From Campylobacterales bacterium (GTDB lineage Bacteria; Campylobacterota; Campylobacteria; Campylobacterales; QNZT01): a DNA stretch of 32,443 nucleotides. The stretch spans positions 61,142-93,584 of the forward strand of contig JALVVN010000028.1 in assembly GCA_027023405.1 (NCBI GenBank). Direction: 5' to 3'. The position numbers were made by a program, and so were the translations under genes. Positions 12,997 to 19,198 of the stretch are shown piece by piece. The first letter of the stretch is position 1. Each line of letters starts with the position of its first letter. The notes under the pieces were generated by a model that saw nothing but the letters and a program-made list of their open reading frames with translations, ran no database searches and was not told where the DNA came from.

Positions 12997-14784
12997 ATGC
13001 CAACCCTACAGTTCAAAGGAAAAAATATCATATGGAATCACCATATGAGTGTGCCGTACCATACGCTTGAGCGGGTGGAGAAGCTGGACTTTCAAGCGGA
13101 CAAAAGTAATGGCAATATCATTGTAGAGGGGGATAATCTTACGGCGCTTAAAGCGTTAGTGCCTCAATTTGGCGGTAGCGTCCAATGCATCTATATCGAT
13201 CCGCCGTATAATACCGGTAAAGAACACTGGGTATACAACGATGCCGCCAATTCTCCGATGATACAAGAGTGGCTTGGCAAAGAGGTTAGCAAAGAGGATC
13301 TTACAAAACATGACAAATGGCTTTGTATGATGACCCCAAGATTGAAGATGCTTTATCAATTGCTTCGTGAAGACGGTATAATTGTTATTCATATAGATGA
13401 GCATGAGATAAGCAAGCTCCGAGAACTAATGATAGAAATTTTCGGTGAAGAAAATGAGCTTGGTACGATTGTTTGGGACAAAGGTAATCCCAAAGGGGAT
13501 GTTGCAGCTATTGCGGTACAGCATGAATATATTGTTGTATTTGCTAAAAATATCGATATTTTCAAGGCTTCCAATGAACTCAAAAGACCAAAACGAAATG
13601 CAAAAAAAATATTGGAAAAAGCAGCAAAGCTGTTTAAGAAACTTGGGAAAGTAGATTTGCCGGAAGAACTAAAAGAGACCATAAAAAAATATAGCATCCC
13701 GGAATCATGTATTGAACAGTATAAGATTCCCTGCACTCTTGAAGATATCAATGAGCAGTTTCAATCTTGGCTTAAAAAGCAAGATTTTTCAAACGGTGAA
13801 AAGGCATACAAGTTTATCGACGAAAAAGGAAGAGTCTATCAGTCGGTGTCCATGGCTTGGCCCAATAAAAAGAGAGCACCGGATGAATATTTTGAACCTC
13901 TGATTCATCCAGTCACAAAAAAACCTTGTCCCGTACCGGATAGAGGCTGGAGGAACCCTCCTGAAACAATGCAAAAGCTTTTGGAACAAGGTCTTATTAT
14001 ATTTGGACAGGATGAAACAACACAACCCCGACGAAAATATTTACTTGAGGAAAATTTATACGAAAATATTCCTTCGATTCTCTTTTTTGGAGGAAGTGAT
14101 GACGCCTTGTTTAAAGAATTTGATTTGGAGTTTGACAATCCAAAACCATACAAATTTGCAAAAGAGCTATTGTCTTATTTCAGTAAAAAAGACTCGATCA
14201 TCCTCGACTCCTTCGCAGGCTCCGGCACCACCGCTCACGCCGTGATGGATCTGAACAAAGAAGACGGCGGCAACCGCCGTTATATCCTCGTACAGATGTC
14301 CGAAAACAGCGAAAAAGAGCCGGAGAAAAACATCTGCCGTGACATTACCCGGGAGCGGATCGTCAGAGCCATCGAGAAGTTTGGCTACGATTCGGGCTTT
14401 GAGTATCTGCGTGTGGGGCAGGCACTCGATGCCGAAACACTGCTAAGTGGTGAACTGCCCGAATATGAGACCTTTGCCAAGTATGTCTATTATCTGGCGA
14501 CCGGAGAGCATCCGGGGGCAGAGGCTCAGATCAACAAAGAGAGCTACTTTGTAGGCAGCAAGGGTAATGAAGATATCTACCTGATCTACACCGACGATAT
14601 GGATGCTTTGCAAAAACTCGCACTCAGCTATGAAAAAGCCGAGTCGATCCGCAAACGATCAGGGGCGAAAAAAGCGATCGTCTATGCGCCCGCCTGTTTC
14701 CTGGACGAAGAGGATCTCCAGGAGCTGAAGATCGAGTTTGTCTCTATCCCTTACAACCTCTTTGAGCGAAAGGCGGAAGTCTGA
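12997..14784 (+). CDS. Type III restriction-modification system methyltransferase (Mod)
   Basis: The 595-residue protein has the beta-class adenine methyltransferase order. The catalytic motif IV DPPYNTG lies at residues 68-74 and the SAM-binding motif I (DSFAGSGTT) at about residues 405-413, with a target-recognition region between them. It would methylate one strand of a short asymmetric site and, with Res, cut unmodified DNA. The stop overlaps the res start by 1 nt (TGATG). Base composition is uneven. The segment at about 13450-14190 (recognition region) is AT-rich with long A-runs, while the text from 14190 onward is markedly GC-richer, as in res. This suggests replacement of the recognition domain by recombination. 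Confidence 0.9.
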   Translation: MPTLQFKGKNIIWNHHMSVPYHTLERVEKLDFQADKSNGNIIVEGDNLTALKALVPQFGGSVQCIYIDPPYNTGKEHWVYNDAANSPMIQEWLGKEVSKEDLTKHDKWLCMMTPRLKMLYQLLREDGIIVIHIDEHEISKLRELMIEIFGEENELGTIVWDKGNPKGDVAAIAVQHEYIVVFAKNIDIFKASNELKRPKRNAKKILEKAAKLFKKLGKVDLPEELKETIKKYSIPESCIEQYKIPCTLEDINEQFQSWLKKQDFSNGEKAYKFIDEKGRVYQSVSMAWPNKKRAPDEYFEPLIHPVTKKPCPVPDRGWRNPPETMQKLLEQGLIIFGQDETTQPRRKYLLEENLYENIPSILFFGGSDDALFKEFDLEFDNPKPYKFAKELLSYFSKKDSIILDSFAGSGTTAHAVMDLNKEDGGNRRYILVQMSENSEKEPEKNICRDITRERIVRAIEKFGYDSGFEYLRVGQALDAETLLSGELPEYETFAKYVYYLATGEHPGAEAQINKESYFVGSKGNEDIYLIYTDDMDALQKLALSYEKAESIRKRSGAKKAIVYAPACFLDEEDLQELKIEFVSIPYNLFERKAEV

Positions 14785-17300
14785 TGTATCTCAAACGATA
14801 CCAAGAGCGTGTGGTTGGGGAGTTATCGCACTTTTTCGACACATGCAGCGGCAAAAAGGAGGAGATGGCAACAATCCTTGCCGCCGTACCACCGGGGATG
14901 AGAGACAAAATCCCGGCAAACTGGGTGGAAAACGCTTTCAATGAACTCAATCTCCCCTACGAAGATAAATGCAAAAACGGCTTGGGAGCATACTACCCTA
15001 GAGGGGTGATCAAAGTCCCCACCGGCGGAGGTAAAACGCTACTTGCCGTCGAAGCGATACGGGAGTATCAGACCCGCTTTGCCAAAAAGCCCCACGGCTT
15101 GGTGGTGTGGATCGTCCCATCAGAGACCATCTACACCCAGACTATCCGCCAGCTCAAGGACAAATCCCACCACCTCCGCCAGCTCATCGACCGCTCAAGC
15201 GGCGGCAAGACCATCATTTTGGAGAAGGGGCAAAAACTCACCACCGACGATATCGAGGGCAATCTGGTGATCCTTTTTGTGATGATCCAGTCCGTCAGTC
15301 GCGCCAACAACAAAGAAGCCCTCAAAGTCTTTCAAGATAGTGGCGGGTACGAAGGATTTTTCCCGCCGGACAACCGCTATGACCTGCACGAAAAGATCAT
15401 AGAGCAGTATCCCAATGTGGACTATTTCGAGTATCTAGGAAACAAAGCGGTCAAAAGCTCTCTGGGTAATGCGATCCGCGTCTCCAAGCCGCTGATTATC
15501 ATCGATGAGTTTCACAAAGTCTTTACCAAAACAGCCAAAAACACCATCGACAATCTCAATCCCGAAATGATCCTGGGATTTAGTGCTACGCCAAAAAATG
15601 GGATGAACATTATCTCCCGCGTCAGTGGGCTGGAGCTCAAAGAAGAGGAGATGATCAAGCTCGATATGCACATCATCCCGCCGCCAAATGACAACAATGA
15701 CTGGAAAGAGATGCTCAGACGGATCAAAGAGCACCGCGAACACCTGGAAGATACTGCGATGCGCTATCAGAAAGAGAGCGGCAGATACATTCGCCCGATG
15801 GCGCTCATCCAGGCAGAACGCACAGGCAAAGAGCAGCGGGGCAAAGGCGGCGTGCACGCGCTTGATGTCAAAGAGTATCTCATAGAGCTGGGGGTCAATG
15901 CCGATCAGATCGCCATCAAGAGCAGCTCCCAAAACGATATTGAAGATCTCAATCTCCTCTCCCGCGATGTGGAGATCCGCTACATCATCACCAAGGAGGC
16001 GCTCAAAGAGGGGTGGGACAACCCCTTCGCCTACATTCTCGGCATCATTCCCAACGCCCAGTCAAGTAGCTCCATGACCCAGCTTGTGGGCAGAATCCTG
16101 CGCCAACCCTATGTGCAAAAGACAGGGAGCCCCGAACTGGATGAGAGCTACATCTACTTTTGCAAAGGGGAAGTCTCCGAAGTACTGAAACATGTCGAAA
16201 CGGGTCTCAAAAGCGAAGGATTGGAGGATATTGTGGGCAATGTCGCCACCGATGAGGGCACCCCCACCCCGCGCCCCAGAAAGCGGGTAAAGATCAAACC
16301 AGAGTTTGCCGACAAAGAGGAGCAGTTCTACCTTCCCGTTTGGCTTGTCAAAGAAAATGGTGGGCACAGAAGATTCAGTTACGCACGCGATATCAAAACC
16401 AAACTGGACTTTGAAAACATCCGACTCACCGATGAAACGGTCGAGAAGATCGGCGGCTCTTTGAGTAAGCAGCATACGGAAATGGATGATTATGTCGTCA
16501 CTATCACCGATACCAACAGCATCGCCCACCAAAAGCGTGATATGACGATGGAGATCAGGGAGAACATCTCCTATACTTATGCCACCCGCCGACTTACTGA
16601 AGTGATCGAAAATCCCTTTTTGGCGCGTCGAAAAGCCGAAGAGTTTATCGCCGTACTCATCGATAAGTTGAGCCAAGAGCGTGTCGGGGAGCATTTCGGC
16701 TATATCGTCTCGGAGCTTGTCACCTATCTATCGGATCAAAAAGCCTCCCAGGAGAAGGCGATCTTCGATACTATGAGAGCCGAAGGGAAGCTACTGCTTG
16801 TGATCATCGATGAGAATACAAGAGGATGCAAGATACCCGAATCCGATGAGATTGAAGTGGGACGCTATCCCAACCCCTACCGCCACTATCTCTATGAAGA
16901 TCTCGATCTTGGCTCTCTCAACAGCTTGGAGCGCAGAGTCGGAGGTATCATCGATCGGCAAGAGAAAGTATTGTGGTGGGTCAGAAACAAAACCGGTAAA
17001 GAGTGGTATGCCATCCAGGGATGGAAGAAAAATAAAATTCGCCCCGATTTTATCGTCGCCAAGAAAAAAGAGAGTGACATTTTGGAGATCGTTTATATCC
17101 TGGAGAGCAAGGGTGAGCAGCTAACCGGCAACCCTGACACCCTCTACAAAAAAGATGTGCTTGATCTCATGACCGAACTTCATAATAATGGTCAATTACG
17201 GGTAATCAAAACCACTCTAAGTGACCTCAATGAGCATGCGGAAGCATATCTAATCCCCCAGGGATCCGAGGAGAGGGATATTCGGACATTGATGAGCTAA
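14784..17300 (+). CDS. Type III restriction enzyme helicase/nuclease subunit (Res)
   Basis: The 838-residue protein is an SF2 helicase with Walker A VIKVPTGGGKTLL at about residues 74-86, a DEAH-box variant LIIIDEFHKV near residue 240, GFSATP near 267 and a later helicase motif including QLVGRILRQPY. The C-terminal PD-(D/E)XK-type nuclease is visible as RPDFIV near 752 and ILESKG near 773, so the enzyme looks complete. It translocates or slides on DNA after Mod-directed site recognition and cuts near head-to-head sites. The start codon overlaps the mod stop. The ybgC gene follows after 16 nt on the same strand and may be carried on the same transcript. Confidence 0.92.
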   Translation: MYLKRYQERVVGELSHFFDTCSGKKEEMATILAAVPPGMRDKIPANWVENAFNELNLPYEDKCKNGLGAYYPRGVIKVPTGGGKTLLAVEAIREYQTRFAKKPHGLVVWIVPSETIYTQTIRQLKDKSHHLRQLIDRSSGGKTIILEKGQKLTTDDIEGNLVILFVMIQSVSRANNKEALKVFQDSGGYEGFFPPDNRYDLHEKIIEQYPNVDYFEYLGNKAVKSSLGNAIRVSKPLIIIDEFHKVFTKTAKNTIDNLNPEMILGFSATPKNGMNIISRVSGLELKEEEMIKLDMHIIPPPNDNNDWKEMLRRIKEHREHLEDTAMRYQKESGRYIRPMALIQAERTGKEQRGKGGVHALDVKEYLIELGVNADQIAIKSSSQNDIEDLNLLSRDVEIRYIITKEALKEGWDNPFAYILGIIPNAQSSSSMTQLVGRILRQPYVQKTGSPELDESYIYFCKGEVSEVLKHVETGLKSEGLEDIVGNVATDEGTPTPRPRKRVKIKPEFADKEEQFYLPVWLVKENGGHRRFSYARDIKTKLDFENIRLTDETVEKIGGSLSKQHTEMDDYVVTITDTNSIAHQKRDMTMEIRENISYTYATRRLTEVIENPFLARRKAEEFIAVLIDKLSQERVGEHFGYIVSELVTYLSDQKASQEKAIFDTMRAEGKLLLVIIDENTRGCKIPESDEIEVGRYPNPYRHYLYEDLDLGSLNSLERRVGGIIDRQEKVLWWVRNKTGKEWYAIQGWKKNKIRPDFIVAKKKESDILEIVYILESKGEQLTGNPDTLYKKDVLDLMTELHNNGQLRVIKTTLSDLNEHAEAYLIPQGSEERDIRTLMS

Positions 17301-17709: not shown

Positions 17710-18282
17710 ATGAAACAGAGAGGACTAGAGAAGTTTAACAACCTTGTCGATGCACTAGGATCGCTTCCGACAGTCGGCAAAAAGTCCGCACTCCGATATG
17801 CCTACCACATGGTGCTCAACGACTCATTTAGTGCGCTCAAGCTTGCCCATGCCATCGAAAATGCGGTGAGTTCGATTCGGCGTTGTACGCAGTGCGGCGG
17901 ATTGAGTGAGGATGAGATTTGTGATATCTGCTTTGATGATAGTCGAGATGAGAGTAAGCTCTGTATCGTCGAGAGTGCGAAGGATATCTTTGTGATTGAG
18001 GACGGCGGTATCTATGACGGCAAATATTTTGTCCTCGAAAATCTTGATGAAGACCAGATCCAACGGCTCAAATCGGTGATCGAGGGGAGGGTGGAGGAGG
18101 TGATCTTCGCCTTTACCCCCTCACTCGCAAATGACGGCGTGATTCTCTTTATCGAAGATAAACTCAAGACATTTGATCTCAAATTTACCAAGATCGCCCA
18201 AGGCGTCCCCACGGGTGTCAATCTTGAAAATGTCGATCTGCTCTCACTGGCAAAAGCACTCAATGATCGGGTGAAGATTTAG
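17710..18282 (+). CDS. recR: Recombination mediator protein RecR
   Basis: The 190-residue protein of normal family length has an N-terminal helix-hairpin-helix (LGSLPTVGKKSALRYAYHM), a four-cysteine zinc finger (CTQCGG...ICDIC) and a Toprim domain (LCIVESAKDIFVIED, then FAFTPSLANDG). The C-terminal VPTGVNLENVDLLSLAKAL is also present. RecR loads RecA at gaps together with RecO in this phylum. The last 55 bases, including the stop, are repeated perfectly at 19139, where a toxin-antitoxin unit has been inserted. The gene itself remains intact. Confidence 0.95.
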   Translation: MKQRGLEKFNNLVDALGSLPTVGKKSALRYAYHMVLNDSFSALKLAHAIENAVSSIRRCTQCGGLSEDEICDICFDDSRDESKLCIVESAKDIFVIEDGGIYDGKYFVLENLDEDQIQRLKSVIEGRVEEVIFAFTPSLANDGVILFIEDKLKTFDLKFTKIAQGVPTGVNLENVDLLSLAKALNDRVKI

Positions 18283-18287
18283 TCAAA
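18228..18287 (+). repeat. 60-bp direct repeat, copy 1 (3' end of recR)
   Basis: The 60 bases covering the last recR codons, its stop and 5 nt beyond are identical to 19139-19198. This copy belongs to the functional recR gene. Confidence 0.97.
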
Positions 18288-18298
18288 ATTTGCATTAA

Positions 18299-18457
18299 AC
18301 CCAAATCTCGAAATAGAGATTCATGACTTTGCATCATCGCATTCTCGGGCTTTAGATAAAATTATCGCCGAACCTACGGGTGCGACTCAAATTTGATGCA
18401 AACCCCATAAATACGAGCATAATATAAATTCAAAGAATTCTATTGCGAGATTTGGGT
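18299..18457. repeat. Nested inverted-repeat element upstream of the toxin-antitoxin genes
   Basis: Three complementary pairs are nested in order: a 12-bp outer pair ACCCAAATCTCG (18299-18310) / CGAGATTTGGGT (18446-18457), a 9-bp pair TTTGCATCA (18328-18336) / TGATGCAAA (18394-18402), and an inner stem TCGG...GATAA / TTATC...CCGA (18345-18371). All are perfect. Such nesting suggests a folded RNA or a folded single-stranded recombination site. No coding sequence overlaps it. Confidence 0.6.
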
Positions 18458-18469
18458 AGAGATTAAAAC

Positions 18470-18505
18470 TTGACAAAAGTTATCAAATATGATAATCTAT
18501 CATAT
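18470..18505 (+). promoter_or_regulatory. Promoter and palindromic operator of the toxin-antitoxin pair
   Basis: TTGACA (18470-18475) is followed after 17 nt by TAATCT (18493-18498). A 19-bp palindrome (ATATGATA-ATC-TATCATAT, 18487-18505) covers the -10 and the toxin ATG at 18504. It is a likely binding site for the HTH antitoxin, and transcription would begin at or next to the ATG. Confidence 0.55.
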
Positions 18506-18836
18506 GAATTGGACGATAGAGTTTTTTGATGAAAGTGTAGAGGCTGAAACTCTTGCTCTGCCCCCAAAGATTTTAGCAAAAATGCTACATATTTTTGAAC
18601 TAATCGAGATGGCTGGTGCCCAACTGGGAGAACCATATACAAAATCTCTTGAAAATGGGCTATTTGAAGTTAGAGCAAAAGCTAAAGAGGGAATTGGACG
18701 AAGTATCTATTGCTATCAAAAGGGACAAAAGATCATTATTTTACATACCTTTGTAAAAAAGAGTCAAAAGACACACAAAAGAGATTTAGAAATTGCTTTC
18801 AAACGCAAAAAGGAGATAGATAATGCAAGCAACTAA
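18504..18836 (+). CDS. HigB/RelE-superfamily toxin (phage Gp49-like)
   Basis: The 110-residue protein fits the Gp49/HigB-like branch of RelE toxins: MNWTIEFFDESVEAE, LHIFELIEMAGAQLGEPYTK, LFEVRAKAKEGIGRSIYCYQ and a basic end IILHTFVKKSQKTHKRDLE. These toxins are ribosome-dependent mRNA endonucleases held inactive by the HTH partner. ATG 18504 is preferred to 18489 because family members begin close to this point and 18489 lies inside the operator. Neither has a ribosome binding site, which fits a leaderless transcript. The toxin-first order and 14-nt overlap with the antitoxin are typical of HigBA-type pairs. Confidence 0.85.
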   Translation: MNWTIEFFDESVEAETLALPPKILAKMLHIFELIEMAGAQLGEPYTKSLENGLFEVRAKAKEGIGRSIYCYQKGQKIIILHTFVKKSQKTHKRDLEIAFKRKKEIDNASN

Positions 18837-19122
18837 AAGACCTACATTTAACAATTTTAAAAAGAAGGTATTACAAAATGAAGAGGTACGCAAAGAATAT
18901 GATCTGCTAAAACCGCTTTTTGAAATTAAAAAAGAGTTAATTGCCGCACGCCTTTCAAAAGGGCTTACACAAGATGAAATTGCTAAGAAAATCGGAACCT
19001 CAAAATCAAACATATCAAGACTTGAAAGTTTAAATAACAGCTATATGCCAAACCTCGTTACACTCATAAAATATGCTCAGGCTTTAGAAATGAAGCTGGA
19101 TGTAGGGTTAAAGACAATATAA
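18823..19122 (+). CDS. XRE-family HTH antitoxin
   Basis: The 99-residue protein has a Cro/C1-type helix-turn-helix at about residues 40-90 (LIAARLSKGLTQDEIAKKIG, then TSKSNISRLESL) and a basic N-terminal tail that probably wraps the toxin. It overlaps the toxin gene by 14 nt, so both are made together, and it should bind the palindrome at 18487-18505 to repress the pair. Together with the toxin it forms a type II module that would punish loss of the insertion. Confidence 0.88.
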   Translation: MQATKRPTFNNFKKKVLQNEEVRKEYDLLKPLFEIKKELIAARLSKGLTQDEIAKKIGTSKSNISRLESLNNSYMPNLVTLIKYAQALEMKLDVGLKTI

Positions 19123-19138
19123 ACCCAAAATTTGGCTT

Positions 19139-19198
19139 AAATGTCGATCTGCTCTCACTGGCAAAAGCACTCAATGATCGGGTGAAGATTTAGTCAAA
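19139..19198 (+). repeat. 60-bp direct repeat, copy 2 (orphan recR end)
   Basis: This is an exact copy of 18228-18287. It has no recR body in front of it and overlaps the last codons of aroE on the minus strand. The lack of any mismatch points to a recent event or to homologous maintenance. Confidence 0.97.

Follow-up and report, generated by a model that had tools for sequence, protein, structure and literature searches.

Bacterial MITEs are commonly regarded as debris, with their hairpins ascribed to palindromic ends. The closest described systems to the element discussed here are the Correia/NEMIS, ERIC, RUP, BOX and QMITE elements, which are dispersed, 100–200 bp in length and bounded by terminal inverted repeats, and whose transcripts are predicted to form long stem-loops. 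In the case of Correia and ERIC, the RNAs influence how RNase III or RNase E cleaves transcripts, according to the sections drawn on from three reports (PMC2229807, PMC10969869, PMC3049150); those sections make no mention of a test for strand-specific covariation across genera and termini of the kind described below.

The Campylobacterota element that is the subject of this work resembles these elements in each of these aspects of form, with no sequence relation apparent, and differs from them in its host and in its IS1380-type termini. It is located in a 32,443-nucleotide stretch of DNA (referred to throughout as the window), where a preliminary description had drawn attention to nested inverted repeats inside a toxin–antitoxin (TA) insertion and had suggested that these might represent a structured RNA, a folded single-stranded recombination site explaining how the TA unit moves, or the remnant of a MITE-like element. 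The explanation that we favour, with a probability of roughly 80% for the whole, is that the element is a MITE of IS1380 type with a structured RNA specific to one strand, and that a TA pair has arrived beside it by a separate insertion; the action of the RNA and the mobilisation of the element in trans are parts of this explanation that we infer.

A MITE with IS1380-type ends

The 12-bp arms (18299–18310 and 18446–18457) and 9-bp arms (TTTGCATCA, 18328–18336, and TGATGCAAA, 18394–18402) reported in the preliminary description are exact and correctly placed, and no coding role is apparent for the stretch. The repeats are not, however, peculiar to the TA insertion, as ten other full copies are found elsewhere in the genome. 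Judged by its sequence, the stretch is a non-autonomous MITE with IS1380-type ends, 157 bp in length (18300–18456, minus strand), an internal deletion having removed 3 bp from the family norm of 160 bp. Copies of the family start with CCCAAATCTCGAAATAG and finish with the reverse complement of this sequence. In the window copy, the left terminal inverted repeat (CCCAAATCTCGAAATAGA, 18300–18317, plus strand) is identical to both ends of an IS1380-family element described below, whilst a single base differs in the right terminal inverted repeat (18439–18456, minus strand), which has GCAAT for GAAAT.

Including the copy in the window, there are 11 full-length copies in this genome (157–160 bp, 89–94% identical), distributed over many contigs, along with approximately ten more that are truncated or internally deleted, some of them ~48 bp long with both ends. 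Internally deleted derivatives of 48–64 bp with both ends intact are found at L026 (570–617), L025 (1037–1084) and L024 (971–1034), and two MITE copies (L130, 3944–4104, and L081, 6658–6814) resemble recombinants between subfamilies. When copies from this genome and its relatives are pooled, exact 5-bp duplications are seen in 47 of 76, compared with a null mean of 1.7. The edge duplications of the pooled copies are 86% A+T and none match over 6 bp. In the window copy, the target duplication is degraded (TTAAA on the left, TAGAG on the right).

A pattern scan of GTDB contigs identified 58 stretches, nearly all in Sulfurovum, Sulfurimonas and their kin. One complete 2.2-Mb genome (G059; examples are L051 and L141) has an unusually heavy load, with 85 matches to the MITE end. 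No MITE match was found in the plasmid and phage collections searched.

Clues to the origin of the MITE come from a contig (L089) belonging to a MAG labelled Mariprofundus, and possibly misbinned, in which both MITE ends are present 1652 bp apart, separated by a single 437-codon ORF and accompanied by the duplication TTTAA. The ORF product is an IS1380-family transposase (NF033539, 308.6 bits against a cut-off of 180) and the 18-bp end is identical at both ends of the element. Left ends of similar elements are also present in other MAGs. The L089 element and the MITE have the same 18-bp ends and the 5-bp AT-rich duplication, but unlike IS1380 elements the MITE has no transposase and shows little similarity past the ends. 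Searching the window's draft genome assembly with the IS1380 family model revealed no transposase, and searching the same genome with the ends of the parent IS revealed no parent; near-matches to the IS end (at C7:161728, C24:2559 and others) were discarded as candidates, being located in ordinary genes. Past mobilisation would have depended on an IS1380-family transposase provided in trans, which would have recognised the ~18-bp ends and, on insertion, generated a 5-bp AT-rich target duplication.

The suggestion of a MITE-like element is therefore borne out by the dispersed copies, common ends, 5-bp duplications and parent IS, and a search for a second genomic occurrence, proposed at the outset as a check, yielded many. 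The stretch is, moreover, more than a remnant.

The toxin–antitoxin pair beside the MITE

In several relatives, recR and the convergent aroE gene are adjacent. In the window, they are separated by a TA unit of ~850 bp that has an exact 60-bp repeat of the recR end on either side. The first copy of the repeat (18228–18287, plus strand) is the original 3′ end of recR and the second (19139–19198, plus strand) is 100% identical to it, with the convergent aroE end kept whole. Because the repeat flanks the TA unit, both recR and aroE are intact. Two genes upstream of recR, a gene encoding a type III restriction res-subunit-like helicase is found at 14784–17300.

The unit comprises a Gp49/RelE-like toxin gene (18504–18836, plus strand; PF05973, 91.6 bits) and an HTH_3 antitoxin gene (18823–19122, plus strand; PF01381, 44.8 bits). 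The ORF call places the toxin start at 18489 but comparison with a homologue (G007) supports 18504. The MITE is located inside the TA unit, within the remnant of a second, related MITE. One end of this remnant, CAAAATTTGCATTA (18284–18297, plus strand), is a 14-bp match to the second MITE type (as at G000:C40:2903–3063); it is interrupted by the MITE and continued by GAGATTAA on the other side, where the sequence after the MITE, with the degraded target duplication, reads TAGAGATTAA (18457–18466, plus strand). The TA unit's right edge carries a second C40-type end-like sequence, AAACCCAAAATTTGGCTT (19121–19138, plus strand), with a 15-bp exact match. Pieces resembling the ends of the second MITE type border the TA unit.

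Three homologous TA pairs have edge duplications of 19–91 bp (19/19, 89/91 and 65/69 matches) and no MITE, whilst two further homologous pairs have weak edge duplications. Homologous TA loci with edge duplications (L229, L230 and L235) can be set beside positions 18228–19198 of the window. On the evidence of its borders, the TA pair in the window was inserted separately, with duplication of a 60-bp target. Insertion with long target duplication, on the order of 100 bp, has been described for restriction-modification units (Nobusato 2000, cited in PMC3874152), and the part of the latter paper drawn on here does not mention a TA case. The TA insertion, with its exact 60-bp duplication, looks like an event of this type; it differs from the restriction-modification units in having a toxin–antitoxin pair as its cargo, and it concerns the neighbour of the MITE.

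These observations bear on the earlier proposal of a folded single-stranded recombination site by which the TA unit moves, a site that would be of the attC or IS200/IS605 kind. In favour of such a site are the strand-specific DNA hairpin and its position beside the border of the TA unit. Against this, the MITE is absent from TA homologues with long flanking duplications, and so does not explain TA movement; the boundary of the TA unit is the 60-bp duplication, which lies outside the MITE; and the ten other full copies are located elsewhere. Integron attC sites and the ends of IS200/IS605 elements are single-stranded DNA sites at the edge of their cargo and produce no target duplication, and the MITE, which has clean 5-bp target duplications and the ends of a DDE (IS1380) element and is missing from those TA homologues, differs from them on both counts. 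We consider a recombination site highly improbable.

We give equally little credence to a role in the TA operon, whether as its leader or as a regulatory RNA. The MITE is indeed directly upstream of the likely TA promoter/operator (TTGACA ... AAATATGATAAT, 18472–18500, plus strand), but that promoter, lying downstream of the MITE, is conserved in close TA homologues that lack the MITE, the structured strand is antisense to the TA genes, and the same element adjoins many unrelated genes.

Covariation and strand bias of the hairpin

The plus strand of the window copy folds with an energy of −48.1 kcal/mol (z −5.76), a value reached by none of 200 shuffles, whilst the minus strand forms a single unbranched hairpin at −59.2 kcal/mol (z −7.39). 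The arms of the nested repeats are real, but the 9-bp inner pair is not a conserved pairing in homologues: the conserved partner of the 9-bp arm lies further 3′, within a full-length hairpin. As a family structure, the plus-strand fold of the window copy, including the 9-bp pair, finds little support, having six pairs with two-sided change and 180 of 500 shuffles as good.

The full-length hairpin behaves differently. Across 44 aligned full copies, 31 of its 67 pairs display two-sided change, with 155 such cells compared to 57 in shuffled alignments (0 of 500 shuffles as good). As the copies have a common ancestry, these counts overstate independence, a difficulty partly met by parsimony on a tree, which gives ~50 two-sided events at 28 pairs, with 13 pairs having changed at least twice, and by the held-out families described below. 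In the plus orientation there are 276 A.C cells versus 45 G.U cells, an excess that indicates that the other strand is the folding strand. When the alignment is made on the minus strand (A2), 94.6% of pair cells are standard pairs and 29 pairs show two-sided change, with 152 such cells compared to 46.9 ± 5.5 in shuffled alignments (0 of 500) and at most 51 in slid-alignment controls. The mean fold energy of 74 copies is −76.8 kcal/mol for the minus strand versus −52.1 kcal/mol for the plus strand, with the minus strand better in 73 of the 74. DNA parameters favour the same strand in 74 of 75 and, because G.T wobbles favour this strand in single-stranded DNA also, the bias is compatible with a single-stranded DNA role. 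The default RNAalifold consensus for the plus strand is weak, probably because this is the less stable strand.

Quasi-palindrome correction can transfer a change from one arm of a hairpin to the other, thereby mimicking covariation, and all MITE copies are near-palindromic, with self matches on both strands. The element might on these grounds be a plain palindromic MITE, its near-palindrome being kept by DNA processes such as template switching between the arms in replication, with no RNA role. We regard this as unlikely, though less so than the readings dismissed above. Several internal mismatches (at A.A, C.U, C.C and A.G positions) are complementary in 0 of the 42 copies counted, whereas arm-to-arm copying would erase them, and the wobbles are strongly one-sided. 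Taken together, covariation and strand bias suggest instead that one strand, the minus strand in the window, is conserved as a structured RNA of ~160 nt, from which we infer activity as an RNA. At the level of the family, the initial guess of a structured RNA is supported in this way, the compensatory changes across homologues that had been proposed as a check being present.

Related copies with other termini and a possible role for the RNA

A covariance model (R1) built from the minus-strand alignment scores the window element at 148 bits on the minus strand and 74 bits on the plus strand. Run on 397 genomes of the phylum, the model finds matches in 18, belonging to eight genera, with the copy numbers per genome being lower bounds, since few candidates were scored in each. 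The held-out copies are 54–69% identical to the consensus and some have other termini (CCCGAATTATGCAATAG, TAGACTTCTTGCATAACCC). All form rods that are more stable on the same strand as in the family, although the model that found them rewards this fold. An internal loop, UGA/GAU, is kept under the apical stem in many copies. In genus g25, the copies occupy mostly unrelated loci, one pair being at the same locus; being at different places, they appear mobile. A domesticated gene with conserved synteny was considered for the g25 copies and rejected, as their positions differ apart from the same-locus pair.

A second MITE type with ACCCAAAATTTGCATTA ends, belonging to the same putative RNA superfamily, is found at L044 2903–3063 (G000:C40) and L188 1508–1657, with R1 scores of 106 and 52 bits. 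An Rfam scan of the window region gave no match, and in a scan of the diverged copies the only match on the element was to MIR821, below threshold at 32.9 bits against a cut-off of 249. Elsewhere, L136 (6131–6243) has a near-threshold match to the c-di-GMP-I-GGC riboswitch (56.8 bits, cut-off 59).

We tentatively propose a mobile RNA superfamily spread over several Campylobacterota families, with at least three terminal sequences and the same strand-specific rod of ~160 nt, in which the RNA rather than the DNA ends would be conserved and selected, and in which a protein of the host or of the transposon perhaps binds the RNA. Below its apical stem, the rod may often contain the UGA/GAU internal loop, in which tandem G.A pairs could form. 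We take this proposal seriously, loop included, without yet leaning towards it.

How might such an RNA act? From end to end, the element folds on one strand as a ~160-nt rod whose small internal loops are fixed, and comparison shows that compensatory changes have maintained this fold between genera and between elements whose termini differ. Where the element is inside a transcript, the rod may act as RNA. Correia/NEMIS and ERIC offer an analogy, which makes a processing or insulating hairpin the most likely form of action, and this would help the element to survive at its landing site. The main alternative within the RNA reading is that the conserved loop binds protein. Crude ORF calls around 74 pooled copies indicate a bias in gene orientation (p = 0.0006): of 69 genes flanking the RNA strand on its 5′ side, 49 point away. 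The processing model does not predict this bias, which counts against it.

Covariation, fixed internal loops and the one-sided wobble excess indicate an RNA under selection on one strand, outlasting changes in the DNA ends. Whether the hairpins of MITEs function as RNAs in their own right becomes a question that can be put directly to the test in hosts carrying many copies, and the sulfur-oxidising Campylobacterota would gain a structured RNA that as yet has neither a name nor a counterpart in Rfam and is carried by a transposon.
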